A program made the position numbers and the translations under genes. Below the pieces are notes generated by a model. That model was not told where the DNA came from. It saw nothing but the letters and a program-made list of their open reading frames with translations, and searched no databases. Below, piece after piece: positions 45,101 through 64,000 of a DNA stretch of 64,000 nt (position 1 is the stretch's first letter; every line of letters begins with the position of its first letter). Origin of the DNA: Rhizophlyctis rosea (taxonomy: Eukaryota > Chytridiomycota > Chytridiomycetes > Rhizophlyctidales > Rhizophlyctidaceae); contig JADGJC010000095.1 of assembly GCA_027596075.1 (NCBI GenBank), positions 62,001 to 126,000 on the forward strand. The letters are read 5' to 3'.

Positions 45101-47818
45101 GGGCAGGGGAAGCGGTTGAGTATCCCCGTTATGGAGCTTGATTGGCGCAACAATGTTGGAGTACTTCGGTCAAAGTTTGGCAGAAAGACGTACGTATAGG
45201 CAAACACTGTCAAGGAAAAAATGAGAACGCCGGTGAACCGCCACTCACAATGATAGAATGGTAGCGCCAAAACATTCAACATCGTATGCAGAAGTATTTT
45301 CACAATGGTAAGCTGTTGAAAATTTGGAGCAGCATGCTCATGGGAGTGAATGTGCCATGTCGAGATGGCGACATTTGTCTTGACCGACTGTGAATGGTGA
45401 AGTGACGGCCATGGTCGTTGTATTAGTTGTAACTGTCTTCTGTCTGTTGGGCTGGCACGGAAGGCTCAATGATGGATGCTAATTGGATCACGGGCTGTTG
45501 TGGGAGAGGATGAGGAGCCGGAGGAGGTAGGGGGTGTAGGGATGGAAGCAGGAGCGTGGGTTGAGGACAGTGGAGTAGTAGTACGACATTGGACTAATAA
45601 GGGTAGATGCTGTATGATGCGCACAACATAAATGAAAACGACGGATGCAATCTGAATTTGAGGTGCGGAATGGCAAGAAAGTAGGGGGTTGCAAAGGGAG
45701 TACCTGCCAGGTTGCGCAGAACTGCCCCACCCGCAACCCTATCGGCTGCTCTCCTGGCACTCGGTGATTTGGCGCATAGGGTTTGCAACCCTAGCGGGCA
45801 CCCACCGACCAACCGCTCGTACTATCAGGCGATTTGCAGATGAAGCGGGCGTATTCAGGCGGGGATAATCTGGAGTATTTTGGATGTGGATGAGTACGTT
45901 GCCATGTGGGATGCTGTGAGCACAATCACAATAGTAGCTTTTGTCATACATCAACAGACTCTTGTCACGCCGGGTGGCCGTGTGGATGTCATAATGTTGA
46001 TGTTGTACTTTTGTCTGTTGGCCTTGGTGACGGTGAAGGAACCACCGAGTCAAAACACCCTGACCATACGTCAATGTCCTGGAACAGATACTGAACATTC
46101 CTTCTCGTTGTGGGCCTTTTGGTGGTGCTCATTTTTAATCCAGGCAGATCAGAGGATGGGCATTCTTAATGAACAAAAAGCTCACTTGGCTCTGATGATG
46201 TTGATCAGTTTGATCCATGAACGCGAGAAAAGAATTCAACGAGGGCAAAGTCAGGCGGATGGGCAATAGCGCTTGTGCAGCCACACATTGCAACCTTACC
46301 AAGATCGAGTGACATACGCCGCAAGGCAAATCTAAATAGGGGTTGCGAACTAGAAACATTTCAGGAAGGAAAAGGTATGAGCATGGGCGAAGGCAAGCAA
46401 CAATGGTTCCCATGTGCATTGACATCATAGATTCCGGGTCCTAGTATCCAACTTCCCCAGTGAATCCGTCTCAAGAATTGAGCACCTCGCCCCAGATCAC
46501 CCTGACAATATAGCAGGTACGGAAAAAGCCTGAAGTCTCATCATGAAAGGCGTTTTCAATGAGGAATGGTCAAATCAGCATGGTCGTCGTGCCTGGCGAC
46601 TCGTGGTGGGTGGCCAAGGTATGTACATACTTTTTGTTGCCATCCGGTTGGGATGATGATGGCACCGTTGACTCAACTTGATGTGATGCAAAGCCATGGC
46701 GCTGTGAACGCTTTCTATGCATTGGCTAACGCTCGTGGCCTCATACCATTCCGTCTCTTTTGGTGCCCTTTCAACATCACCTTCTTTCCAGGCGCACTAT
46801 CGGATTCACAAAACCTTGTGCAAAGAGCGTACAGTAAAGAAGCAAACTAGCAAACTGGGCCTACACAGCTATTAGTGTCTTGAGTCGCCAGTTACCGAAA
46901 CCTTGGCAAGTCATAGCACGTATGAGCATTGAATACAAGAGCGAACGACAATGCAGGGGAAGCCTGAAGCAGCAATGAATTACGTCATGATCGGAAAACA
47001 GGGTTTGAAAATGTCACTGTATTTGATGATGGAAAGATGTCGCACGTCCCCAAATCCAAATAGCTGGTGCCATGATTGCCGCCACATAAGTCTCTTCCAA
47101 TTCTCCTACTCACCCTTATGATTGCAATTTTGCATAAACGCACAAGAAAACCTTGACACCTGCAGCCAGTCAACCCACTTTCAAGTTGTCAATTCAGTAC
47201 GAGGTTTGCTCTGCTTTTTCGAGAAGCACTAGTGCAACTTCTAGGGTGGATGATCATGAAGTCGACGTATTATGTGGGTGTATGTGTCGGACATGAAATC
47301 AAACAAGAAAACGAGTGCAAAGAAGATTAGGGCGGAATTACAGGATGGGGCACTTGTGCTCTGGCACTAAGATTGGTAAAGTGCGATCTGGGATGTTTGT
47401 TTTATCTACAGCCATAAAATAATTAAGGCGTGCAACTACGGGAGAGGGAAAAAAACGAAGTGGGAGAGAGGAAGACCATGATGGAAGGGCAATACCAAAT
47501 CCTCCCGCTTATAGCTCGTTAGATTCCCCATGCTCCCAAATTCTGCCGTGTCGGATGTACCAAGCGTCGGCCTCCCCTAAGATTCGTCAATCCATTGTTT
47601 GACTGACAGTTTCCTTATTCCCACATCGAAATCTCCGCCAAAAGTCTCTTTAGACGCAACTCGCTCCAGATCACAATATTAAATACAAAAAAACCGTGAA
47701 ATCTCAACAACAAAGGCGTTTCAATTGACGCCTTGCCCTTTTCTTCCACTGCAACGATGATCTACCCCATTCACCTAAATCCACGAATCCCCCACCAACT
47801 ATTTCCGAAACAATCCTC
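42171..47818. other. Gene-poor tract
   Basis: About 5.6 kb without a complete gene. A minus-strand stretch at 43637-43882 reads protein-like (SFKDHAQQLFADDAMDLLST, then LLSDLTDVANLPPK) and is followed in another frame by similar-quality sequence, probably coding debris. No RNA gene or clear repeat found. Confidence 0.4.
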
Positions 47819-49513
47819 TTACATCTCCAACGTGAACCCAGCGCCGACACGGCCGGCGCCGCCTCCGCCCTTTCCGTAATCGATTTCTCCGGCGAGCTGG
47901 AAGTTGGGAAAGGGTTAGGCAAAGGAGCCACTTTGAGATTATCATTGAAAAGACATGCGCGCAATAGACACAAACCTGCAAGGCAATTCCAGGAGCGATC
48001 CTCTCCTCCACAACAGCACTAAGCCTACCCTGACTGTCCACCTGACCCCTAATCGTCGCCGAAATAGTATCCAGCTTGAACCCAACAGTAGCAATACCCT
48101 CCCTCCGTCCCTCACCCATCCTCGATCCCTTGCTAAGAAGCGCCTGCAACTCAGCGCTAACCTCCAACCTCTGGTTCAACCTCCTCCAATAAGTCGAATG
48201 AAGCAACCCAGACGACGGCGCAAACGTCGTGGTGAAAACCTGCGTCGGGTCGCGCGGGTTGACGGGCGGGAAGGGCGATTGCATTCCCGTCGGGATTGTG
48301 GTTGGGTTTGGGAGTGTGGCGGGAGGGGGTGCGTAGCGGAGGGCGAGGGTCAGGGAGGGTTCTTCGATTTCTGGGTTGGGGCGTTGGTAGACGAATTCGC
48401 CACCTACGGCTAGGGAGCGGGAGACGGATTGGAGGTAGGCGACTTGGTAGATGCCGGTTTGGGAGGAGCGCTTGGAGTCCGACCAGGATGCGGGGGTGTC
48501 GATGGGGTTCGGGTTGACGGCTTTGACATTGAGGGTGTAGTCGCTGCCGTGATGGTCGTGCTCGACTTGGAGCATGCTTTGGCCGCCGCTGGGGGTGACG
48601 TGGGCGGTGAGTTTGGTGGTGCTGGTGTTTCTGGAGTCGAGGAGCGCCGGGTGGGGAGCGTTGGGGTCGGCGGCGGGGTCGGAAAGAGAGTGGCTAGTGG
48701 GTGCGGGAGTGGCGGCCTTTGCGGCGGCTGCGGCCCAGTTGTAGTGTGCGCGAGCCTGCAAACCTCCATCATGGTCGATCTGACCGTGCAACATGGTCTG
48801 TAATTGCCGAATTGCGTTAGGTTGACCAGGTCTCATGGGTGTCCGATAACCAACTGTAACTTCATCCGCTTCCCCTACCCCCCCCCCCCCCCCCCCAACC
48901 TCAACTTCCACACAATCGCATCACGGTAAGGCGCAGGACCCATTTCCACCGCTTCGCTCCCAAGCCCAACCCACGGAACTCATTTCCACCACTTCGCTCC
49001 AACCCCAATCCACGAAACGCATCCACCGCTTCGCTCCAGGCCCAACCTGCGGGCATATCCACCGCTTCGCTCCAGTCCCAACCCACGGAACTCAATTCCA
49101 CTGCTCATTTCCACTGAAGAAACTCACCACACCATCAGCAAAAACGGAGCCAAATTGGTAAGAAGGCGGATAGGACTGAGAGCCCCAAGAAAGAGAGTGA
49201 AGGACCTGGAAGTTAGGGGTGAGGATGGAGGTGAGGTCGAATTTTGCGCCATCGAAGAGGAAGTTCGTTGTTTGAACGGCTGTGGGAAAAAAGGTTGGAG
49301 GATTTGGGAATGAGTACATCCACTCAGCACGGGTTTATGTGTGATTTGAGAGACAAGACAGCTATGCTGCTCTTGGGGACACCTACATTTTGACTCCCTG
49401 TGCAAGCCTTCCCAACCACCGGGACTAGGCAAGTTTAGCTTCTCCCTGAGACGAGATAAGCCAAGGAGATCGACAAACGAGAACGAAGAGGATGGTGGTG
49501 GTGCAGCAGCCAT
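47819..49513 (-). CDS. TOM40: TOM40, mitochondrial outer-membrane protein import channel
   Basis: Four exons: 49387-49513, 49128-49279, 47976-48797, 47819-47896; in-phase GT-AG introns of 107, 330 and 79 nt; 392 residues, normal for TOM40. It forms the beta-barrel pore through which preproteins enter mitochondria. Family features: the N-terminal PSPGGWEGLHRESK, then DGAKFDLTSILTPNFQVLHS, SYQFGSVFADG, HGQIDHDGGLQARAHYNW, the near-C-terminal STYWRRLNQRLEVSAELQ, GIATVGFKLDTISATIRGQV and the closing LAGEIDYGKGGG...VGAGFTLEM, all in the usual order of the Porin_3-type barrel. The second intron carries a 4-copy tandem repeat and a 19-nt C run. Confidence 0.96.
48878..48896. repeat. 19-nt poly(C) run in TOM40 intron 2
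   Basis: A run of 19 C on the plus strand (poly(G) in the TOM40 sense) inside intron 48798-49127. It makes a spurious Gly-run start in a longer open frame that should not be taken as coding. Confidence 0.9.
48941..49092 (-). repeat. Four-copy tandem repeat in TOM40 intron 2, shared with the SET-MYND gene
   Basis: Units of about 34-40 nt begin near 48941, 48981, 49020 and 49054. In the TOM40 sense each contains a core like GGTTGGGCCTGGAGCGAAG followed by a (C)GGTGGA-type junction. The best unit matches the repeat in intron 1 of the SET-MYND gene at about 33 of 36 positions, in the same sense relative to transcription. Confidence 0.85.
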
Positions 49514-52500
49514 TGTGGAAAGCGGCTGTGGGTGAGTGGGGGTAGGTGATCGTGACAGTTATGGATGCCGATGGCGAAGGGAAAGTTGCAAGCCTGAGCA
49601 GGGTGGGATGAGCCCGTGTCCTCAGCGTCTAAAATTGGGTCCCAATATTGAATCGTCGATTGAGCAACGAGCCATGGTCGATTGAGCAAGAAGATTTGAG
49701 GATTTCGATTTGTGACTCACGGAGGGTTAGTGGGTGTGACTCACCATGCCTCATTGCATGTGAAACGGCAGCGTCTTCGTTGGTGCCCAATCACAATTTC
49801 ACATCCAATTGCTCAACCATGCCTCAATTCACAATCTGTTACTTTGTTGCTTTGTGTTTGTTTCCCTCAGTTACTAACTGTTACTGACTGACTGTAAGCT
49901 CTGTACTTTACTTCAGTTCGCTCTATAACTTACATGGTCTCACACCACGTTTGACAACACAGAGAAGGATCAGGGAGAAACTCCTTCCGCGCATACTGGT
50001 TGGCAGGATGTTGGAACTTTGGTAATTGCAGCTAATCGCCATCACATCCGCCTTCAGCTGTACACGAGGCATTGCTGCACATACATGTTCGGTCACGCAA
50101 GTCGTCCATTTTTTGATTTGTTGTAAAAGTGTATGCTTTTTTTTTTTTGACATTAATCTGTTTCTGTTATTCCGTCTGTTACGCACAACTGGGCAGGGTG
50201 ACGCTCAAGCGCCCCCCGTTAGTAGGTCCACCCACAGAAACCCAAAGACACAACTATTCTATGATGCTGCACCCCAATCACTCCAATCTGCATCTTTTTT
50301 TCGACAAAATTTTCAGATTCAAGTGATTCACTATAGTCATGATCTGTTCAACTTCATACTAATCACCACTTCGGTATGAACTGTTCTCATGCACATTTGT
50401 TTGGAAGAGTGCCTCAATGCATCTTGAAAGCTGGGCACTCCTACAGAAAAAGTGTTTGGGAATATTATCGCAGAGTCAAATGGTCATAGTACTTTTTCCC
50501 AACCACATGGGATCAACATTCGCAAGAGGCAATTTGGCCAGCTTCCAACTTTTTGGGAAGTATTAACACAGACGGACGATGGTAGTCTCTGGGCATTGTT
50601 CACTCCCAACTGTATTCTAACTGCACACAAAGGTCAAAAGAACCGGATGGAAACATTTGAGTTACCAAGCAGTTGCAAGACAAGCTATGAGACCTGAGAT
50701 CGTTGAATATTTACAGCATCCCAACAAAGTAGTGAGGTCTCCATTTATCAACACCATTTGACACAGTTTTTGGAAGCCCAGCAAGAGATGCGACGTAGGA
50801 TACCAAATGAAGTCATCTAAGAACAGCATGCAAAGAATGGGCGGTAGAGCCCTTGAAAATCTGGGTAGCTCAATACATGCCTAGGTCTGATATTTTCTGC
50901 CATGACCGTAGAGGCAAAGAGAAACAGTAAAATCAAGAAACAGATAGATGTCTAAGTAATGAATGTCTCCCGTCACCAGCATTTGTTGCGGGTTGTGAAC
51001 GATGCTGATTGGCGAAGCGTTCGTTACCCTGTGGTTTGATTCATTTTGTTTTCCTAGCGGTCACATAATTGGTGTTGCAGCCCAAAATTCAGCATTTGAA
51101 TAAGTTGGATACCTTTCCATGTGGCAAAAAACTGCACTAAATCGATCTGAAGTAACATCAGCAGCAGGATGCACTGCGGCCGGGTATTCGGGTCGGGATT
51201 ACCTTGCCGGAGATCGTGTTCTATCGACCGTTACGCCAATATAGTTGCAGCACTTGACTTCGGTGCGCGATGAGCACTGACACATTCTGCTCTGAGCAGT
51301 GCCAATGGAATGAGGAAAAAGATCATTCAGAATTTAGAATGGGAGATGGGGTGTTCACTGTCCGTCTCTGATATTGTTCGGAAAGCTCTAGTCGATTCGG
51401 TGCAAGGCAACTTGTCGTACGGAGCGTTTCCCTGACCGTACGACCATTAATCCACTATAAAAAGAAAAACTGCGGCGGAGGCTCTCTACTAGGCCACTGG
51501 TTGTGCTCCATGATCGCAGCACATGGGAGGACGGAAAAACTTTCATTATAGCGTGCAAGTGTTAGGGATTTGCCAATCAGCGGCGAGGTTTGGGGCAATC
51601 ATCCGTGTCTGACTTGACTTGGTTGTAATGAAGGGGAAACATGCAGTGATGTTTCATCCTGTTGAGGTTGACGATTGTTCAGGAGATAATTTCGACAATC
51701 TCGCGTCCACTGGGCCGACCTGGTAGGTGAATGAGACATAATCATGCGACGTAGGAGTTTTTTTTTGCGAGGTATGTCCACAGCGGATAGATCACAAGCA
51801 CGATCGGATGCTGATAGAGGTTTCGATTCTACTGTCATGAATCTCACTTGCTGAGTGCAAAGTGTAAACGAAATCTGAGGTACTCAACGTTACGACCAAA
51901 TGGCACAGCAGGGCGGTTGGCGAATGCAAGATGTGCAACTTCCCAGCATCCCAGAGTCACAAGTGTCATGAGTTCGTGAGTTGGCGCTCCCATTCGACCA
52001 GCATGCGTGTCGAAAACGCGGTTTCAAGAATGAGACCAGATCAGGTGTTTTTGCCAGGCTTTGATATTTGCGTGAGTGGCCGAGATGGCGTTGGAGTAAC
52101 TTGAGCTCAACTTGGTGAAATTCATGCGCCCACAGTAACATACTGAAGAGGATCAACGGATCGGTTGTTCCCAAACTGATTACCGTGTGACGACATCTGA
52201 AGGCTTTCTTATCGTTGATGATTTATCATTAATAACAGGAACAGTCAGTATTGCTATGCACGGATCGCGCAGAAAAAGGATTGTACAAGGGGTGTAGCGG
52301 CAACATGTCCACAGTTTCTTGTGTGTCAACTTGGGGATTCCCGGAATGCACTTTCTTTTCGAATCGCTTCCAGAACGGATAGCCACATTGGGCAATCAGA
52401 TGGTTGCCCTCTGCAACGATCATTCAATGATCGAACCGTACTTCGGTAAGATTCCAGCTCGGCAGCCATCACATGAAAATATCGTGGCCCACGCAGATTG

Positions 52501-52884
52501 TGTTTTCCTGCATTCAAAAACTTGTGCTCGTGGCAACCTGAACTTTCCAGTTCATTGGTTTGAGATCTGGAACCACAAGGCCAAGCAAAAAGGATTCGCC
52601 GGAGGACGCTACAGAAGGTCACAGCAGAATCCCTCGATGAGCTAGACAGTCATTTGACATCGTGCACCTCAATCGCACTGCGAAGGACAGAAGTTCGGCT
52701 CGAGATACACCCTTTGAATTAAAAGATAGCGTAGGTGGTTTTCTATGACTGTATTGGAGGTGCAGTACTCTATGACTCTACCGGCATTATGATAGCGGCA
52801 CCACTGATGGGTTTTGAGAACTGAGAATAGGTAAAATACAATCTTCCACCCTCGCACATTGCATGGACAAATACTTGATTTGAT
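49514..52884. other. Gene-poor tract upstream of TOM40
   Basis: The left end is the TOM40 promoter side. No complete gene. Minus-strand protein-like stretches at 51599-51847 (SADVIP-like frame with DLSAVDIPRKKKLLRRMIM), 51890-52174 (LLWAHEFHQVELKLLQRHLG) and near 52240-52420 may be exons or relics of one gene; I could not link them. Confidence 0.4.
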
Positions 52885-53588
52885 CCACTATACAACCTTC
52901 ACCTCATCCCTAATATCATCTAGCATCGCCACAAGATTCAGAGCTCTACCCATTAGTACGGCTCGGACGCTGATGATGTCATCAAGTGGACGCAAGCCAT
53001 ACCTTTCCTGCGGAGTAGTCAAAAATTCTTGCGCTTTGTCGTCGTCCTTGTCCTTGTCAGCTTCGAATCCTAATGCTAAAGCGGACTGGCCATGCAGAAG
53101 TGCGGCTCCCCAATGCTCTGAGAGTGAATGGGGACTTCCCTACCCGGGTAGTTGTCATTCATATGACATTGGCAATTGATGACCTCATGACCTTTCAACG
53201 TACTACCATCTGGGCTAACATGTCATTCTTTTGTCTGAATGCTTTCCCCGCCGCGCACCATCCATCAAGCAGCATCGACATGAAGACTTCTGTGGCTGTG
53301 GTAAATTGGGAGAACAGATGATAAGGAAATTGGGCGTTGGTAGTGTTGAGCAGCACAGTGAAGTAGAACTGAGGCAACAAACACCTCGAGGAACACACGC
53401 CTATCTTCATATTCTTGACTAAGTTGCTTGTGAAATTGGAGAGTGTACGGTTCCTACTTCTACGCACAGGTCCCCTTTCCGGATGGTGTGAGTGGCACCA
53501 TCGTACTCAAAGAAATGAAATTGGTGTACATCGGTGAGGACACCGCGGACGGGTATGATGTTGAGGCCGTTGATGAAGTTTCGATAGT
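52885..53588 (-). CDS. Unrecognised multi-exon gene (3' part)
   Basis: Three minus-strand exons join in phase. The first runs from 53588 (after a GGCAG acceptor) to a GTAGGA donor near 53454 and reads DYRNFINGLNIIPVRGVLTD then HQFHFFEYDGATHTIRKGDL. The second, from about 53372 to a GTACGT donor at about 53201, reads FYFTVLLNTTNAQFPYHLFS through KNDMLAQMV. The third, from about 53137 to a stop at about 52889, reads SEHWGAALLHGQSALALGFE, then an acidic DKDKDDDK, then LDDIISVRAVLMGRALNLVA. Phase agreement at both junctions argues this is or recently was a real gene. The RGVLTD...FFEYDG phrase loosely recalls restriction-endonuclease-like domains of some fungal effector families; that is a weak inference. 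The 5' part was not found. Confidence 0.45.
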
Positions 53589-55314
53589 CTGCCTATGAAT
53601 GCAGTTGGGATGGAAGGCATATGTGGCCCATAGTCAGCCAACAACAAAACTGATGAAAGAGGTCGTACCATCCAGTTCACACATTAAGCAGCAATCCCAG
53701 CTTCAGCATTCTCATAGAGACGTCAGTCCGGCAATCATGTAGATGTCGGTGTTTTGAAGTTTGCGTTTGCCCTTGCTACAAATCGGCCTACAAAAGAAGT
53801 TGCGCAGATATCGACATTGTTCCGGGTTCGCCAATGTACGTTTTGAATCCCATACATGAAACTCGAGGATTTTGACTATACGACGACGTTTTCAGACATG
53901 CCTATTGTGTCTACCGATTGGTGCATGCCCTTCAGATGACGATGGACTGTGAATTTTTTATCATATGAAATGAAGTCGAAGGATGAAAAAAAGAACCATA
54001 CGGGGTACTCAGGATGGCGGCAGTTCGTGCTCTTGGCCACAAGAGATGGTAAGAGATGATAAGAACTTGAGTGCTTTACCTTCATGTATAGTTTGATTGA
54101 GGATGGATGGTCGATGACTTGGCCGCAATAACAGCGCGGTTATTTGACATTGTGGACCGTGGTCCATTTGCTTTGGCAATCATACTGTGACGAGAGGGCA
54201 TATAACCAAAATACCAGGAATGCTCTGCACCTCGAATCAAGTACGGCAGGCAATGCCGCGCATCCATCTGCATTGTTCTTTGATGATCCGTGGGCATTCA
54301 GTTCGGATGTTGGCTGAAATTGTCTATACGGTGTTTTGCAGTACGTTTCTACTTGGGGCGTTGTCAATGCGCACGCAAATCATAACTGTGCGAGTCACGC
54401 CCCTTAAAAATGTCAGCCAATGTTAAACACATCATCGAAAGATTGCATTCCGATCTTTACCGATGTTTCGCTATCTGACACATCTGAACAGCGTGAAAAA
54501 AAAATCCCATGCTCGGATGTTGTACATTTGCAAAGTGCCAGGGGAAAGTTCGTGTCAAGGTAACACCTTTTTATGGCGCACTCTGATTGGCGATGCTTTG
54601 AGATATCCTCTCTGGAATGACCTTGACGAAACAACGGCGGTTCGAAAGGCCAGTCTTACTGGCGAATCCGCTTCGTCAGATGAGACCCGGACATGACCCA
54701 TTAATATAATTAAGCAACCAGCCCTATGCATATCCACGGTAATGACATGTCTCGGTATGTTCACTACCAAATGGCCTTGATTCAGGAAACTGTCCACAGA
54801 TGCAGGGAGTCTCCCTTGCATGCCAAAGTGGAAGTCAAGTATGTTAGTGCTTGCGTGCACGGTTTGCTGCGACCATCTAAGACGGTGCATCCCTGGCAGG
54901 CTGAGGCCACCACCAGGAAAGGCACAGCAACAGCTGGGACTCAGCAGAAGCCATAGAGCCATCGACCTCACCACATGGCGCCATGAACGCAAAGATACAT
55001 GTATCCTCAATGGTTACGGAAAGTGCTGCCGCAAAAGGTATTGTGTTGGGATTTGGCCACAGTCATGGCCAAAGCTTCAGCCTCCCGCAAAGGGCTCCGA
55101 ACCGGCAAGGAGTGCCGAAAGTTGCCGAGTCGGTGGGATACACGGAACACTTCTCGGAGGAGAATTCCGATACCTCCGGGGTGGTCTCAAGCTGCCAAGA
55201 TGTCCGACATTCCTTCAGCCTCCGCCAACTCCTCCAACAAAAGAAGACACTCCACTCCCGCTGCAGTTCCACAAGATTCAAGGAGGGCCATGGACAAGTC
55301 TTTGCCACCGCTCA
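53589..55314. other. Gene-poor tract upstream of the second esterase
   Basis: It probably contains further 5' exons of the minus-strand gene to its left: a frame near 53740-53880 reads FHVWDSKRTLANPEQCRYLR. No other gene recognised. Confidence 0.35.
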
Positions 55315-55321
55315 TATATAA
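55315..55321 (+). promoter_or_regulatory. TATA box of the second carboxylesterase gene
   Basis: TATATAA lies 73 nt upstream of the ATG at 55394, a normal spacing for a strongly transcribed fungal gene. Confidence 0.5.
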
Positions 55322-55393
55322 GTCATCGGGACAACGTCCCCTTGGAGCTGGAATTCAGGTTTTGTGCCAACGTCCATCCCGAGGATCTCAACC

Positions 55394-57235
55394 ATGCTCA
55401 AATCCCTCCTCCAACTCCTGGCGACGACGTCAACCATCGTCGCCGTCACTGCGGCAACCGCTCCAACAGCCACCGTCGACAATGGCGTGTTCGTAGGCAC
55501 GGCGACACAAGTGCCAGACGCCGGCACCGTCAACAAATTCGTGGGCATACCTTTTGCGCTTCCGCCCCAACGTTTCAGTGCTCCTGTAAAACCCCCCAAC
55601 TCGAGGGCGGTCCGTAATGCGACAGTTTTTGGTCCAATGTGTATTGCTGCGGGTTTTGGTGAGTTGTTGGAGCGTGTTTTTGCTAGCATCCATCGTTACG
55701 ATTGTCATGATATGAGATGCAATTGCTGACGACATCTAATACCTTCCGCAGTGCCTAATCCCGTAATTCCGGGACTTCCCGCAGACAGTGAGGACTGCTT
55801 GTACCTCAACGTTTGGGCTCCAGCGTCCAAAAAGCCTGCTGGTGGGCGGGCCGTCATGTAAGTACATTTTGCCGGAATTTGGTAATCAAATCGTGGGAAA
55901 TATAATATCTAATATTTGAGCCCGTCATTCAAGGTTTTGGATATACGGCGGCGCATTCATTACGGGTGGTTCCTCCATTCCGGACTACGATGGCTCCAAT
56001 TTGGCTTCCAAGGAGGACGTTGTCGTTGTGTCCTTCAATTACCGGACCAATTGTGAGTAGAGATTCGGCCTTCTGGATGTAATTTTGTCGTAAAGCTAAT
56101 TTACCTATCTTTCCAAGTGTTCGGCTTCCCTGGCAACATCCCCGGCCTCAAAGACCAAAACCTTGGTCTATATGATCAACGTCTCGCCCTCGACTGGACC
56201 AGACGCAACATCGCCGCCTTTGGCGGAGACCCCAAGAAGATCACCATCTTCGGCGAGTCCGCTGGCTCCGCCAGTGTCGATTTCCTCTATCTCACCACCT
56301 CCCCCATCAACCCACCCTTCCGTGCCGCTATCATGGAAAGCGGATCCTACTACCTCAACGACAATGCCATCGGTGTGTTGGTACCCCAAAACCCTCCACC
56401 CGGCGAACCTGTCCAGAAACTCTCAACTGCTATCGGCTGCGGATATGATGCGAACACCCTTGCCTGCCTTCGGAACAAGACCACATCGGAGCTCAAGGCG
56501 GCGTTGGACGCGAATTACGTCCCCTGGCAGCCAACAGGGGACGGCATCACAGCACCAAAAGACGACAAAGGCGATAGAATCCGCCGTGCAGGGGGTGGAG
56601 CGCGTGTTCCGACACTTCTTGGGACAAACGCAGATGAGGGAATCGTGTTTACGATCTTTGGTACTCCAGGAACTTGGGACTACCTCTTCAACAGCATGTT
56701 CCCCGAACTTAGCCCCTTTGAACCTCAACTCCGTAAAGCATACCCCGTGGGCGGATGCGCACGCGCAAAGTGTTGGTCGACGGAATTGGAAGCCGTTTCG
56801 CAAGTCCTCACCGACTACCTTTTCGCTTGCCCTGCTTCGAAGGAAGCGAAGGCCCAAGCGGAGTTTGACGTCCCAACTTGGCGGTACTACTTTAACCATA
56901 CCTCCCCTGCCACTTCTCCGCCTTTGACCCCCTACGCCGCACACTCGGCGGAAATTGTGTATGTGTTTGGGAACCTTCCCGCGGGGGCTACGGCGCAGGA
57001 TAAGGCTATTAGTAAGTTTTTGATGTCGGCGTGGGCGAGGTTTGCGAAGAACCCGACGGCTGGGCCTGGGTGGAAGCGGTATTCTGGTGTGAGTGGGCGG
57101 AAGGATGTACAGGGAATTCAAGGGAGGGTGAATGGGACGTCGTCGGTCTTGTTTGATGGTGTGGATGCTAGTGTTATTGATGAGACGTGTGGGATCTACA
57201 AGCCTTTGTATGCTGTGCGTGATCCTGCGTACTGA
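55394..57235 (+). CDS. Secreted type-B carboxylesterase/lipase
   Basis: Four exons, 55394-55658, 55752-55857, 55934-56052 and 56118-57235, with in-phase introns of 93, 76 and 65 nt, encode 535 residues, the usual length for the family. It hydrolyses carboxylic esters such as lipids or esterified plant polymers outside the cell. Signal peptide: [33 protein letters not shown] and [12 protein letters not shown] are the family entry motifs; [12 protein letters not shown] is the oxyanion loop. The catalytic triad is Ser211 in [10 protein letters not shown], Glu337 in [10 protein letters not shown] and His439 in [12 protein letters not shown]. Compared with the minus-strand esterase at 5400-8117 it has a canonical GESAG elbow and lacks the long N-terminal extension, so the two are distant paralogs. 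Confidence 0.96.
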
Positions 57236-60200
57236 AGAGGTTGACGGATGTGGAGAGTCTACGGCCAATTTTTACCCTTGGCATTAGATAGATAAATAGA
57301 TTCCGAACGTATATCTGGGCTGGAATAAAATTTGGTGTTGGATCGGGTCAAATTGAACCGCAATCACATCATGATGCCAACGAATGCCCGTCGGGCGCCC
57401 CATGTATGAGGGCACGAACCCTGTGGAGTATATCTAGTTGAGCTCTTTCAGTCTTCCTCAGTTAATAAAACGAAGTACAAAAATCATGCTTATGTGGGGT
57501 GGGGCATTTATGGAGTTGGAGAATGAGCTGCTGGTTGGGGGCAAGTGTAAACAATGGGAGTGGCTTAGCGCATCGGCCATCTGATAATTGCATGATGCAG
57601 ACCATGGCACGTTCATCGCTCATCAGCATAATGTAGGACTAAATGAGACAGGTTGGTGATGTGAGCCATGCTGTTGTAGTGCAGAAAATACCCATTTTGA
57701 AGGACTTGTTTGGCAATGCGAGAAGGAGGTCTAAAATGTGGAAAAAATCTGTTGAATGCAACTTCACCCAATTCCGATACAAGGCAGGATCGACCACTCT
57801 GATAACCAGTGGTATCCGAACCTAGCATCGGAAAGACGACCACAAGAGCTGTTCTGCCAGATCTGAAAGGAGATGCATGATCAGGTGGATGGGAGCTACG
57901 GAGCTTTGCATCTCAAAGTATTTACCTATGCGTTTCAGGTAACGAACTTTGCGAAGTTTTGCGAGGGAGGTGGGAATCATCGATCGCTTCCATGTGGAAG
58001 TGCTGCGGTTATAGATGTGGCCATTGCATAATCATAACATCCACACCTTACATGGGTTGTTTTGAAGGCTGGCAGAATCAGGAAAGGTCGAGTGTCACAA
58101 ATGACAGCGCAAATACCAGTCTTGAAAAGGTTTGGACAAAAAGTCCCGGTCTTTGCCGTCCGGCTGATCCTCGGCTCCTGCTGCTCTACTTTTTTTTAAC
58201 TTTAGGTGCAGGGGGCAGCAATTGACTGGTGCAGCATTTCTGATTGCATATTTAGGCAGCAACGCATTGGTTGATGTGCATATAACGTTGCACGTTGCGT
58301 GGCGAAAACGTTGGATGCGCCCAGATTTTGAATGGCAACTGAAATCACCACGTGGTTACGGCGACTGCTGCTCTATTGGCTGCGACATTGCGGCACGAGA
58401 GGTCATCAGGTTGCAAATCCTCGACCGGTCAATGGAAGTGGTATGTACAGGGGATGCGGGTCACCGTTACGAGGCAAGGAAGAGGTCAGTGCGAGCTATT
58501 GCAAGCAGCAGGAACATCTGCAGCTATAATTGGGATAGTATTGGGAGGGTGCTATATATTTCGGGGGGGCATTGGACTTTGTGCCACTACAGCGTTGATT
58601 GAAATTTTGGGCGCAGCGTTGATTGCAAAATTTCAATGGGAAGCGTCGAGATGAGTCGGGGGTACGGTTCTCGTTATCTGGAGTTGAAGGGACAAGGTTG
58701 GTTTCATTGGGGTGTTTGGCATGCAAGATTCAATTTATGAAACACGGACATTTATGTCTTTGTTCGTTCGCTTCAAGAGATATATGAGAGACGGGAAAAA
58801 AGGTTCGAAAAATCGGAAGGCGCACAAGGGCTGGAGACGCTAGCTTAACGGTCATGCCGCAAAGGGGTGGGAGATGGCGAGGCTGACGAAGCTAGTCCAC
58901 ATCTGCGAAGCCGCCCGGGTCGTCCACAGGCGCCGTGTGACTGTCTTTATGGAGAATTGTCCTTTTATAGCGAAGAATAGATGACTTGCACATATTTTTT
59001 CAGTGACTACAGGATCCCATGCAGGAGGCGTGGTTTGTGTAAAAGTTGGTGATCGACGCGTGCCGGTTCCTCGATTCATGCACCATAGGGAAGCGCAGTG
59101 AAGTCATGAAGCTTTCATGATATTTGTTGAAGGTGACTTCTAGCAGCTGCAACTCTGTTGAAGTCCAAATGTTTATCGGCACACACTTGCTTGAACATGT
59201 GTACTGACAGTTTCTCAATCGGTAGCTAGCTAATGTTTTTGGCGAAAGGAGACGTCAATGCATATGTTGGGCCTTTGACTAGAGAGACTTGCTGATTGAG
59301 TCCATCTTCAGGAGAGAGATCCATCCGCATCGGGGCAGAAAAAAGTGAGCACAAAAGGGGGGAGAGTCAAATTTGCACGGAGAGGCGGTGTGCGCATGCC
59401 AAACCATGTTGCAAGCAATGTGTGCGGAATTGAAAGTATTGAGGGAATCGGAGTGGTGGAGCTGGGTATTTAACGAGGAAGCATGGGATTTGGAAGTCTT
59501 GAACGGCAAGAAAAGGAGGTCATTTTTTTGGGCTTGTATATACCGAGACATCTTTGTTGGTGAATGGTTCCACAGCGCGATACGCATTGGTCGGAATTTT
59601 TTTGGGATTTGCTCGAGTGGTTCGAGGCGGTTCGGGGGGGAGAAGCAGTTTGATTGTTGGAATGACTGGAGAAATTTGGCCATCTGGCGGGCGGCCCCCG
59701 TGTTGGAACCCGTCAAATGTTGGCGGAAACGGCTCTGCAACGCAATTATTTTTGGGTGCATGTTCACCATGGGGCGCAATGTCCAAAGTCAAAAAGTTCA
59801 AATCCCGTCAATACAGTTATGTGACTCGTTTCGATGCAAAAACCGAAGGGCCTCGACAGTGTATGTTGCGCAACCCACTCAAACGGGTCCCACAATGTCT
59901 GACAAAAAATGTTATATGATGCGGTGTCATTCGATATGGTTGGCTGCCCTAGTGGGTATTTGTGGTGCAGCGCTTACTATGGACGAAGCTGCTCCTGGGC
60001 CATGACTCCCAGTCCTTTCTGTCACACTCTCTCGTAAAATTCGTATGTTGTATCCTTCAGACGAGTCGTGCAAAGAGGGATTGAAGATTCCATCATATAG
60101 CCTAACTATGTGATGATGCGACTTATTTATTCCGACATTTTTCATTTTTCTTTTTGTTCATATCCGCCTGAGATCCCTTCGGCGGCAGCACTCGCGGATC

Positions 60201-61952
60201 ACTGGGAATAACCTGCAACACACGGTTGGGAGGTCTTTAAGGGCGCGTCAGTAATGATGCTAGCATTTGATTTTGTCAATAATCAACTGCACTGATTCAA
60301 GTCGAAGCATCTGATCAGCCCATATGTTGGTACCCATTTAGTCTCGTGCTTGTATTCTTCGCATTCGAGGCGGCGAAACTCGACATTTCCATTGACTGCA
60401 TAGACATTCCTTTTGCACCCATCCATTAGGCTAATGAAGTCCAGACAATTGCCGTTTATGATTGAGAACTGATTAACTGCACTGATTGCGGTCAACTACG
60501 TTGCTCCGTAAAATCTAGAAGCACTCGAAACTTGTAGGGAAAAGTAGCAGTATCAGGTTTGTGGGGGTGTACTGGCACAGACACCGCTCAACTTGGTGCG
60601 CTCCGTTTGGCCCGGCAATTGTTTGCAGCGGAATACTGGGACCATATTTTGGGCCGGCACGCTTGATACTATCTAGTTTTCCGCCACAGGAGGTTTCTAA
60701 ACGGGATTCAACTATTGGCGAGGCAATTGAGATTGGCATACATCAACGCGGATGAAATATCCCCATGCAGCAATATTAACGACGAGTTCAAACACGAATC
60801 AAGGAAATGAGTATCGTTGAATAGGCAAAAAGCAACCCCAGTTGAATGTCGCGGTGTCAGCACCGCTGGCAAGCGTGCTCTGTCCCCTCTCGAATTTGGC
60901 CATCACCATAGGGTATTAGCTGACGATTTACATGGAGCTCGTGAAATGCATGCCAGGATACTGAGACTCTGATCTGCGTGCATGGAGATTGAGATGGAAC
61001 GATGTGCATAATGAGCATCAAGGGTATAGAAAATGGCGGTGAAGACTGTGCAAGGAAGGAGGGGGGAAGGAGGTTTTGGATGGGTTTTGGGGGGGACGCG
61101 TGTTGAATGGGGGATCGGCGTGCCCATCACGTGTGGCTATTGTGCAACCAGCGGAGTGTGGGGTCATTTCCGCGCCTGCGGACCAATTGGGCCATGGCCA
61201 TATCACACCCCCTGTGGTCACCCTGTGGTGCATACAGCGTGATCGACACTCCGGGCCTGCTGAGTATGATGGGAACCCTGATGGGAACCCTGATGGGAGC
61301 CTAACTGGGCCCTGGCTGAGCGACATTGAATGTCGCGTGTGTTGGTGCTACCCAGATCTCATTAGACTCATCGGGGTTATACTAGAATCAAGATTATGGC
61401 TGATCATACAAGCCCAAATCACTGTGCCACCCATTCACACCAATCATCTCAATTCAACGCGCCGCGAGCCTCCCATTTGGTGGCGGTGGCGTCATGAAGC
61501 CCCCACCTTCTGGCACGCGGATCTCATCTTTGTGCGCGTTTGATCTGGAAGGCCGGGAGGTGGCTTGCACTGTAGGAGTGGTGGGAATGCATTGTTTACT
61601 GGTTGCCACAGTAGAGATCTGGATGTGGGGAGGCCAGTCAACGAATGTGCAGGTGACCTGGTCGAAGGACACTGGAAGGGCCCAGCCAACGTCCTTCTGG
61701 AACAACTTAACACTCCTCAGAACTTGACACCTTCATCTCCTCACCACCATCTGCATTCCCTATAGCGAGACCATATCCGTGCGGGGTCAGCAACATAGAC
61801 ACGTGGAACAAGAGCTGGAATAATGTGAGTGCTAACGCCCCTGTGGGAAGGTCACCTTCTCTCATACAGCTGATCTCATCTCGCGTGTCTGACATCTCAC
61901 TTTCCCACGATGAACATAGAACTCGTAAACCTGCCACAAACACCTATCAAAA
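57236..61952. other. Gene-poor tract between the esterase and the SET-MYND gene
   Basis: About 4.7 kb with no complete gene. Overlapping open frames on both strands at 59279-60005 lack domains or splice signals. A 4-copy GGGAACCCTGAT-like mini-repeat lies at about 61270-61297. The last 200 nt should hold the SET-MYND promoter. Confidence 0.4.
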
Positions 61953-64000
61953 ATGGTCGCAGAAACGAAAAACCAAACAAAATCTAACGGTACCTCTAAC
62001 GGGGCTGCAGCTGCGGCCGCTACCGCATCCGCTAAGAAGAAGAAGTCAAAGAAGGCCCAACCCGCTGCTCCCATTGACACCTCTAAATATGAACAATTCG
62101 TCAACGAAAACAAGCTGCCTATCAAGGTTCAATTCTCCCAGAACAAGGGACGGCATGCCGTTGCGGCTGAAGATCTGGAGACCGGAACAATCGTCTGCAA
62201 TGAGAGGGCGACTTCGTTGATTATCTCCACTCAGGGACTTCAGGATTACTGTCATAACTGTGTCCAGCCTCTCATCAAGGCTTCTCTGCGTCAGGAAAAG
62301 GTGGGTTGACTCGCGCAGAGTGTGAATGGGGTGGGGTGTGGATTGGGGGGTGGAAGGGGAGGGAGTAGGGCCAGCGGGGCTGGTGGATATGCCCGCGGGT
62401 TGGGCATGGAGGGAAGCGATGGATATGTCCGCGGGTTGGGCCTGGAGCGAAGGGGTGGATCATTGTGAGCAAAGCGAACGGATGATATAGTGGAAATTGG
62501 TTAGAGAACGCACCAATCTAATCAAATTCACCACAAATCAGGTCTCCTGCGGAAAATGCGCAAAAGCCTCCTACTGCTCCGCCAAATGCCAAAAAGCCGA
62601 TGCCGCCCGCCACACCCTGGAATGCCCCCTCGTTCCCAAGCTCTACGAAGTCGCCACGAAGCACGAGCTTAACGTCGATCTCCTTCGTTTGATCTTATCG
62701 CTTATCACCAGGCGTGTTTTGGAACAGAAGAAGCAGAGGATGTTGGCTAAGGGCGCCGAGTTCACTGAGGAGCCTGGACCGCCTGTTGGGCCTTTCTTCT
62801 GTGTTGAGGATTTGCCGGTTCATCGTGATGCGTTTGAGAAGACTTGGCTGAAGGCTGTTACTGGTGCTGGTGAGTTGTCTGATGACGTGTTGGTTTCTGT
62901 ATGGGTGGGCAGTGCACACACTTGAAGTTTGACTCACACTTTGTCACCAGCCAAGACCCTCCAAGAAGTCCTTCCGGAAACTCTTGCCACTCCAGAAGAC
63001 GACATCATCGACTACGCGTGCCGCATCAACTCAAATGCTCACAGTCTCAGTGATGAAGAGGGCAGCAACCCTGACACTGCCTTCGGTCTCTTCCCCGTCG
63101 GATCTCTCTTCTTCAGGCACAGGTATGTTGATACCCTTGCTCATTGATCGACTTCACATCCAAGCCAATTGCATGACACATCCACACAGCTGCGCACCCA
63201 ACTGCCACTTCGTCGGCGGCTACGGCATCCTCACCTACCGCACCACCCGCCCCATCAAAGCCGGCGAAGAACTTCTTGTCTCCCACGTCGAACTCTACAA
63301 CGCGCGCCCGATCCGCAAACAGGAGCTTAAACTCACCAAGCACTTCCACTGCCGCTGCTCCCGCTGTGAAGTCCCCATGCGCAAATCCGTCGATAGGTAC
63401 CTCGACGGTGTCTTGTGCAGGGAATGCCACACTGGTGTATACTTGAGCGAGAAGGATCTTCCGAAGGAGGAGGTTGAGAAGTTGAAGGAGGCGAAGGCTG
63501 CTAAGGGCGGGAAGAAGGGAAAGAAGAAGTCTGCGTCCCCGGAGAAGGAGGAGGAGGTTAAGGAGAACGGTGAAACTTCTCCAGAAGAAACTCCCACAAT
63601 CGAAAGCGCCCACTGCGACGTCTGCGGCCACGCCATCCCCCACCCCGAAGTCCAAATGATTCAAGCGCGCGCGCAACAAGAATTCCGCGACCTCTACCAA
63701 CACGTCATGCGACCCGGCACCAACCAAGCCCAAGTCGCGAATCTCCTAAACCAGTTTGTCAACTTTTACGGTCACCGGAACAGGATTCTCCACCCTTACA
63801 ACGCGACGCTTCATAACGCCCGCATCCCGCTCCAACATACGCTCTTCACCCTTGGAGACTACGCCCACGCTTTGGCCGTCGCGAAGGAGACTGTTGATAT
63901 TTGGGAGAAGAGTGGTGTTGTTCCGGGTGCGAGGCAGGAGTATGTTGATATGCTTTGTGCTGTTGCGGATTGTTTGGAGAAGTTGGGGAGGGCCAAGGCG
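61953..64000 (+). CDS. SMYD-type SET and MYND domain protein, truncated by the window edge
   Basis: Exons 61953-62300, 62542-62869, 62951-63122 and 63190 to beyond 64000, all in phase, giving more than 550 residues. Likely a lysine methyltransferase. The N-terminus is Ala-rich and basic (AKKKKSKKAQPAA). The split SET domain begins at IKVQFSQNKGRHAVAAEDLE. A MYND zinc finger is inserted (CHNCVQPL; then CGKCAKASYCSAKCQKADAA and HTLEC), its Cys/His ligands spread over intron 1. The SET core is FFRHSCAPNCHFVGG with GEELLVSHVELYN; post-SET cysteines follow in HCRCSRC. A Lys/Glu-rich insert (KGGKKGKKKSASPEKEEE) precedes CDVCGH. The visible end (LHPYNATLHNARIPLQHTLF, then GDYAHALAVAKETVDIWEKS) resembles the TPR-like C-terminal domain of SMYD proteins. 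The 3' end is missing. Confidence 0.93.
62385..62460 (+). repeat. Two-copy 36-nt tandem repeat in SET-MYND intron 1, shared with TOM40
   Basis: Units at 62385-62420 and 62421-62456 agree at about 31 of 36 positions. Each has GGATATG-(C/T)-CCGCGGGTTGGGC and a GGAG(C/G)GAAG core. The same unit occurs four times in TOM40 intron 2, in the same orientation relative to transcription. It sits in the middle of a 241-nt intron (62301-62541). Confidence 0.88.

Follow-up and report, generated by a model that had tools for sequence, protein, structure and literature searches.

What would place the same 36-nt tandem repeat inside introns of two unrelated genes, in each case facing along the sense strand of its host? 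The question is raised by a 64,000-nucleotide stretch of contig C630 (hereafter the window) of Rhizophlyctis rosea, a chytrid and thus an early-branching fungus, in which a TOM40 gene on the minus strand and a SET-MYND gene on the plus strand both carry the repeat, as a preliminary description of the window had claimed. Tandem Repeats Finder (TRF) reports period-36 arrays at window positions 48941-49089 (4.0 copies) and 62384-62460 (2.1 copies), and each array holds a single exact occurrence of a 19-nt core, GGTTGGGCCTGGAGCGAAG, at 49029-49047 (−) and 62434-62452 (+), that is, at C630:111029-111047 and C630:124434-124452. The best units of the two arrays, read in sense, are identical at 33 of 36 positions in our hand recount, which reproduces the figure of about 33 given at the outset. 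When two mismatches are allowed, GCGAAGCGGTGGA has eight matches in the window, six of them inside the two arrays; shuffles gave a mean of 1.49 matches and none of 100 reached eight, so the likeness of the two arrays is not a matter of chance. We looked for a third cluster of GCGAAGCGGTGGA in the 64-kb window at the same tolerance and found none. The preliminary description had noticed no further copy, which holds within the window and fails across the genome (44.1 Mb in 634 contigs), where we found 21 more loci. In what follows the prefixes C and L denote contig and locus labels in the R. rosea set.

The genome search suggests a little-known type of repeat that resides in introns, with roughly a hundred sites, almost all of which appear to be intronic. 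The 36-nt repeat itself accounts for 23 loci, of which 22 are arrays of at least two units and one, on C272, has one unit. Patterns and a two-unit query reached 15 loci from long units and another nine from the short unit, with a lone weak hit on C52 then removed from the 24. Relaxed patterns gave no further arrays, with 41, 41 and 63 matches against 1, 2 and 8 for reversed-pattern controls; about a dozen isolated matches with three mismatches were left unread, their numbers being comparable to those of reversed-pattern controls (14, 1 and 8). None of the single weak unit matches that we read (C52, C160, C333, C320, C417 and C7) is an array. Those on C160, C333 and C7 appear by eye to be coding, while that on C52 (three mismatches, loop GCA) lies in promoter-like DNA and may be either chance or a real non-intronic copy. 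The long-unit pattern had no exact match in viral contigs, and the five single matches of the short-unit pattern in a prokaryote genome collection are taken as chance.

The units are modular. Two forms, one long (consensus YCCCGCGGGTTGGGNCTGGAGCGAAGCGGTGGA) and one short (YCCCGCGCCGCGAAGCGGTGGA), are mixed within one array and joined by linkers such as TATG, AATGAGT and ACTGCCGGGC, and common to both forms is a hairpin core reading C-GAA/GGA-G. The loop fits GNA in 29/29 aligned long units (the automatic count shifts one row by a base) and in 39/40 aligned short units, these counts covering 29 of the 30 long and 40 of the 53 short units; in this family it is GAA or GGA, the middle base varying. 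Unit lengths are mostly 25-41 nt and the number of units differs between arrays. Aligned long units are 88.6% alike within arrays (18 pairs) and 83.4% alike between arrays (388 pairs), as local expansion together with dispersal would give.

That the arrays are intronic was confirmed for both window genes. The TOM40 splice junction (FADGV joined to TMLHGQ) is matched by P0027, a TOM40 protein from another R. rosea contig, and a zf-MYND match to residues 94-138 of the spliced SET-MYND peptide runs unbroken over the junction at residue 110. Across the genome we read the spliced frame as continuing a conserved protein across the repeat at 15 of the 23 loci, gene names being our own reading of the peptides unless a Pfam match is cited. 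Five of those 15 have outside support, from Pfam at C306, C139, C609 and C630b and from the spliced protein of the other contig for TOM40. A tryptophan synthase match resumes over the array (profile 61-140 before it and 135-236 after it), an RRM match (88-146) spans the junction at 109 of its spliced peptide, and an alanyl-tRNA synthetase match (71-141) spans the junction at 110. Matches to Nop, Orn/Arg decarboxylase, PP2, Y-phosphatase and Rcd1 (the last just under the cut-off) adjoin further arrays; they were sought in frames on the repeat's own strand only and are no test of strand. Among ten spliced peptides submitted to Pfam, those of C146 and C71 had no match, and the two domains of C98 flank the junction without crossing it.

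Orientation was judged by a strand score built from splice signals and from codon usage trained on the window, in which the loop was not used. It favours the strand of the repeat in 22/22 scorable loci, 21 of them with a margin of at least 4; the array on C274 is cut by the contig end and could not be scored. The score presumes an intron on either strand, testing orientation and not intron residence, and the two window loci share training data with it. None of the 23 loci was placed in intergenic DNA, a placement made without a whole-genome annotation and resting at four loci (C432, C93, C268 and C633) on possible and less certain introns of 5' untranslated regions (UTRs). Hits in both orientations, one mark of an ordinary dispersed minisatellite, were looked for at the scorable loci and not found. 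The check proposed in the preliminary description, carried as far as these placements allow, did not refute its reading, and the proposal that the repeat is intron-borne and follows the direction of transcription is supported.

It is the array that is repeated and not the intron, since 79 of the 91 pairs formed by 14 array introns match with the arrays in place, none of them in minus orientation, and only four match once the arrays are removed, through G-rich stretches of 14-17 nt. C306, whose borders are unsettled, was excluded from this comparison and included in measurements of 15 introns. In these the array begins a median of 62 nt past the donor and ends a median of 101 nt, and at least 59 nt, before the acceptor; the median intron length is 325 nt, and the sense strand 5' of the arrays is strongly G-rich, with a GC skew of 0.72. 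Acceptor-like sites occur at 8.0 per kb on the antisense strand of the arrays and at 0 on the sense strand, compared with 4.2 and 1.5 per kb in other hairpin introns of the set described below.

The 36-nt repeat belongs with other intronic hairpin repeats in a broader set that obeys a C-GNA-G loop rule. The 3' tail of the C268 array led to other loci, introns with strings of different perfect GNA-triloop hairpins on the sense strand. With arms fixed and the loop left free, GTGCGCNNNGCGCAC has 74 sites in the genome, with GNA on one strand in 45 of the 50 listed, and GCCAGCNNNGCTGGC has 45 sites, with GNA in 38. A random loop would be GNA one time in eight, a comparison in which binomial values overstate independence since the copies are related. 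All four bases occur in the middle position. An orientation test set beforehand on 20 GCCAGCNNNGCTGGC loci favoured the GNA strand in 19/19 scorable cases, by at least 4 in 17, by 3.3 at C69 and by only 0.5 at C603, C192 being cut by an N gap. These 20 are drawn from about 28 distinct loci, seven others not being in the test; C130, C301 and C442 were excluded, since each has a single hairpin and its loop is of another kind. Twenty GTGCGCNNNGCGCAC loci, all picked from GNA sites, scored for the GNA strand in 15 cases (by 4 or more in 12 of them) and against it in five, with a margin of at least 4 at C36, C53 and C104. The score at C36 is a miscall, for the spliced frame on the GNA strand there is a protein disulfide isomerase with two thioredoxin-type matches; C99a, undecided by the score at −0.4, looks sense by eye. 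Six of eight tail loci are sense and two weakly against, C416 looking sense by eye and C516 being undecided. A domain match crosses the junction in arginase (C124, GTGCGCNNNGCGCAC set) and in NOG1 (C29, GCCAGCNNNGCTGGC set), and an S10 match (C604c) stops two residues short of it.

Merged listings put the extent of the class at 98 loci or more, of which 23 belong to the 36-nt family and the remaining 75 do not; this is a lower bound, drawn from 50 of the 74 GTGCGCNNNGCGCAC sites, excluding sites with other loops and including loci that were not read. Throughout, these are short modular repeats that lie in nuclear introns at nearly all loci read, face in sense and form mini-hairpins reading C-GNA-G. 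A 326-nt query from one intron (L082:505-830) finds 52 matching pieces in the genome, many beginning at query position 62-64 and with ragged 3' ends. These are mosaic copies of a composite element of about 300 nt in which hairpin modules recur in order, and one of its module types, GTGAGCNNAGCGAACGGAT, also lies beside the SET-MYND array of the window.

To count loops we used 46 introns (16.4 kb; 27 from the tail and GTGCGCNNNGCGCAC sets and 19 from the GCCAGCNNNGCTGGC set, with limits drawn by eye and score), leaving out C35 and C603, using C192 only up to its N gap and turning C53 and C104 to gene sense. Triloop hairpins with stems of at least 5 bp number 166 against 16.6 expected from first-order Markov sequences, while tetraloop hairpins show no excess (17 against 16.1); hairpins with 5-nt loops (129 against 14.8) are mostly the same ones with the closing pair open. 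In sense the loops are GNA in 134, TNC in 4 and other in 28, and with the two locus-finding hairpins set aside they are still GNA in 65, TNC in 2 and other in 24, GNA then being ahead in 34 introns and behind in none. The closing pair is C-G in 134/134 GNA hairpins, among which every one of the four bases is found as N. In this pair and in the G-N-A loop the hairpins match d(C-GNA-G), the motif of unusually stable DNA mini-hairpins, a term for which our literature search gave no confirmation. The hairpins comprise 58 distinct sequences, of which some are extended versions of the same stem, and their inner 5-bp arms are of 19 kinds. The window as a whole shows no triloop excess (60 against 68 expected; GNA/TNC 8 against 7.9), and pooled loci with all their flanks are unremarkable (79 against 75); the excess appears once introns are isolated.

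The stems also co-vary. In an alignment of 22 double hairpins 95.1% of cells are paired, a percentage inflated by the choice of rows by eye (24 of 53 pattern matches with the first hairpin in register, of which two with a shifted second hairpin were dropped). Four pairs carry changes on both sides, and the covariation score of 0.209 compares with 0.090 ± 0.014 in shuffled alignments (0/500 reached it) and with at most 0.046 in slid versions. The two-sided changes are confined to the first hairpin, whose stem persists although the letters forming it differ; the same pattern could arise if one arm were copied onto the other.

We infer, tentatively and at somewhat less than even confidence, that these sense-facing repeats act as single-stranded DNA, are copied between introns in that form, and are mainly selfish elements or by-products. 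A DNA rather than an RNA form is suggested because triloops are enriched tenfold in the 46 introns and tetraloops are not. High GC skew and G-rich composition favour R-loops and G-quadruplexes, and transcription of a G-rich intron would displace the sense (non-template) strand, on which the GNA hairpin, one of the stablest small hairpins known in DNA, could fold. Breaks or stalled synthesis would be healed by copying from another intron with a similarly folded sense strand, by templated insertion or by fold-back synthesis, which would yield perfect stems with minimal loops. Since the displaced sense strand would be the exposed one, both the location in introns and the sense orientation would follow; a module would land in sense in an intron and then expand in tandem by slippage, while selection would purge exon copies and antisense copies, the latter as cryptic splice acceptors. 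Pol theta is described as carrying out both templated insertion and fold-back synthesis that starts from two base pairs (PMC11292364). Thus conceived, the repeat would be shaped mainly by transcription-exposed DNA and would not be a built-in gene regulator. If this is true, introns are a niche in which the direction of transcription decides which strand folds, copies and spreads, and an early-branching fungus would offer a single system in which R-loop biology, palindrome formation and intron growth are linked and can be tested.

Several observations weigh against copying as folded sense-strand DNA. ViennaRNA with DNA parameters gives isolated sense and antisense hairpins equal energy, and the difference between the strands therefore rests on published work, including melting points of 76.5 °C (2 bp) and 88.5 °C (3 bp) for 'extraordinarily stable' DNA mini-hairpins (PMC10527192). 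The hairpin of the long 36-nt unit consists of a 2-bp GCGAAGC core only. It is to this GCGAAGC type that the mini-hairpins with the melting points just given reportedly belong. Without the locus-finding hairpins, 12 of the 46 introns are level, with no excess either way. Other loops stand at 5/50 GTGCGCNNNGCGCAC and 7/45 GCCAGCNNNGCTGGC sites (AAA four times), and the copies are related, so that the counts are not independent events. The C53 and C104 introns each have one truly reversed hairpin among sense GNA hairpins, and C35, C603 and the lone weak unit on C52 are not intron-like. Finally, the sense bias could come from selection against antisense acceptors, given their 8.0 per kb against 0.

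A bolder form of the same proposal, which we regard as doubtful, is that the repeats make up an undescribed class of nuclear element that spreads from intron to intron as folded single-stranded sense DNA, its orientation set by transcription and its loop, not its sequence, inherited (19 stem arms, one rule). Titles and abstract openings in the open-licence literature that we searched mention neither GNA hairpin repeats confined to the sense strand of introns nor any repeat in introns of R. rosea. The hairpin elements of mitochondrial DNA, namely the repetitive hairpin-forming elements (RHE) and double-hairpin elements (DHE) of sponges and Allomyces and the GC clusters of yeast, are alike in being short and diverse hairpin modules, which are copied one at a time or as clusters spanning a few hundred bp, through means that are unsettled (PMC2800124). 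The mosaic clustering of repeated short hairpin modules is seen in R. rosea as well. Those elements, however, lie in mitochondrial intergenic DNA, whereas the R. rosea repeats sit in spliceosomal introns of nuclear genes (TOM40, AlaRS, arginase and NOG1 among them), in sense and with the C-GNA-G loop.

The explanation that survives best beside copying as single-stranded DNA is a function in RNA, which we hold to be rather improbable although selection on RNA fits nearly as well as the DNA-level reading. Here the repeats would be intronic RNA structures or G-rich splicing enhancers whose sense orientation is kept by selection, bringing the 5' splice site and branch point of a long intron together or recruiting a splicing factor. 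This accords with the sense bias at the 36-nt and GCCAGCNNNGCTGGC loci, with the covarying stems and with the place of the arrays between the splice sites; it accords too with the length of array introns (the median of 325 nt against 81 and 67 nt for SET-MYND introns 2 and 3). RNA hairpins favour GNRA and UUCG/UNCG tetraloops, yet it is tetraloops that are not enriched in the 46 introns. The stems, moreover, are many and different, and at least 98 loci are few beside the thousands of introns that we would expect of such a genome, an expectation and not a count. A known RNA family was rejected, Rfam giving no match up to E 0.1 in ten loci (22,193 bases). Even as an RNA feature, a sense-only loop rule over about a hundred loci would be an unusual structural constraint on introns.

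We consider it unlikely that the repeat is an ordinary dispersed minisatellite under a purifying filter, inserting anywhere and losing its exon copies and its antisense copies, which would bring pyrimidine-CAG acceptors. The surplus of acceptor-like sites on the antisense strand, larger in the arrays than in other hairpin introns, is what such a filter would act on, and C35, C603 and the C52 unit would be survivors outside introns. Like intronic G-rich minisatellites, the period-36 arrays are tandem and locally expanded; unlike them, one and the same unit is found at 23 loci, always facing one way (22/22 scorable loci sense, where a minisatellite would face both ways relative to genes), and in two unit types with a common hairpin core. 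Many intergenic copies in both directions would be predicted, against 0 of 23 placed there (four loci being possible 5' UTR introns and C274 being cut by the contig end), and the GNA loop rule is left unexplained.

Less probable still, and proposed by analogy, is transposition of single-stranded DNA by a hypothetical HUH nuclease of Y1/REP or Helitron type that would read the GNA hairpin on one strand. A loop rule that marks one strand whichever of the 19 inner arms is present and the mosaic copies of the composite element would suit such an enzyme. TnpAREP and IS200/605 enzymes bind folded single-stranded DNA strand-specifically, TnpAREP distinguishing REP from its complement (PMC8266576). 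REP elements, high-copy small palindromes of bacteria (PMC2817692), further resemble the R. rosea repeats in their strand-specific mark and, as BIMEs served by TnpAREP (RAYT), in their composite arrays. REPs differ, however, in being extragenic, in carrying a GTAG mark beside the stem and in alternating in orientation within BIMEs, whereas the mark in R. rosea is the C-GNA-G loop and orientation is near-uniform within an intron; no nuclease is known for these repeats and none was searched for, and the stems are very varied for a single recognition sequence.

That the repeat is an introner or introner-like element (ILE), multiplying as an intron and having created its host introns, as the preliminary description had suggested among other possibilities, is very improbable and we reject it on flanks and array borders: like introners, which are repeated within introns of many unrelated genes (PMC4457414, PMC9860276) and may co-opt both splice sites (PMC9860276), it has sense copies in introns of unrelated genes, but ILEs are whole near-identical introns, whereas these introns are alike in the internal array only (4/91 pairs against 79/91), have in common outside it only short G-rich stretches, and hold tandem arrays of differing unit number that stop a median of 62 and 101 nt short of the splice sites. 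Overall, the interpretation first put on the two window arrays is partly supported.

Within the window, the TOM40 intron that holds the array (48798..49127, minus strand, 330 nt) has the donor GTGAGTTT at 49127 and the acceptor TTACAG ending at 48798. The array itself, of four units with partial ends, occupies 48939..49104 by eye. In sense order, its minus-strand hairpin cores are GCGAAGCGGTGGA at 49058..49070, GCGAAGCGGTGGA at 49022..49034 (in the unit that is 33/36 identical to the second SET-MYND unit), GCGAAGTGGTGGA at 48985..48997 and GCGAAGCGGTGGA at 48945..48957, all four being pattern matches. The coding region 3' of this intron (47799..48797, minus strand) has a single match in the genome, so that no other copy of TOM40 could serve there as an empty site for comparison. 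The window frame is 99% identical to a deposited R. rosea protein over 74% of the query; since that protein, at 298 aa, is shorter than the open frame, the frame may contain another in-frame intron. The public R. rosea TOM40 protein P0001 starts at MLHGQ, immediately past the array intron; the deposited gene model thus seems to have lost its 5' exons, the long array intron perhaps having misled the prediction. A second R. rosea TOM40, P0027, from a 12,770-bp contig, shows 80% identity over 39% of the query, which suggests from sequence comparison that the name R. rosea covers divergent strains, and arrays that differ in unit number offer natural markers for comparing strains.

Among minor observations, candidate non-intronic copies are L068 (C35:84300-85900), L099 (C603) and L047 (C52). 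At L034 (C146), around sense positions 1380-1490 of the merged locus, a different tandem repeat, also G-rich (GTGGGTGGAAGTG), shares the intron with the 36-nt units and lies ahead of them. Hairpins of the form GTGCGC-GNA-GCGCAC recur every 83-85 bp in L085 (C162), L075 (C74) and contig C216, which gives the introns another tandem period. Several array introns have poly-G runs of 14-19 nt in sense, at window positions 48878-48896 and in the C2 and C186 introns (L004 and L028). The SET-MYND intron with the array (62301..62541, plus strand, 241 nt) has the donor GTGGGT and the acceptor AATCAG. Its two units occupy 62381..62461 by eye, and pattern matches place a degenerate core, GGGAAGCGATGGA, in the first (62411..62423, plus strand) and the core GCGAAGGGGTGGA in the second (62447..62459, plus strand). 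Directly 3' of this array, also by eye, is the module GTGAGCAAAGCGAACGGAT (62465..62483, plus strand), whose 19 letters recur identically in L065, which belongs to the second family of intronic hairpins.

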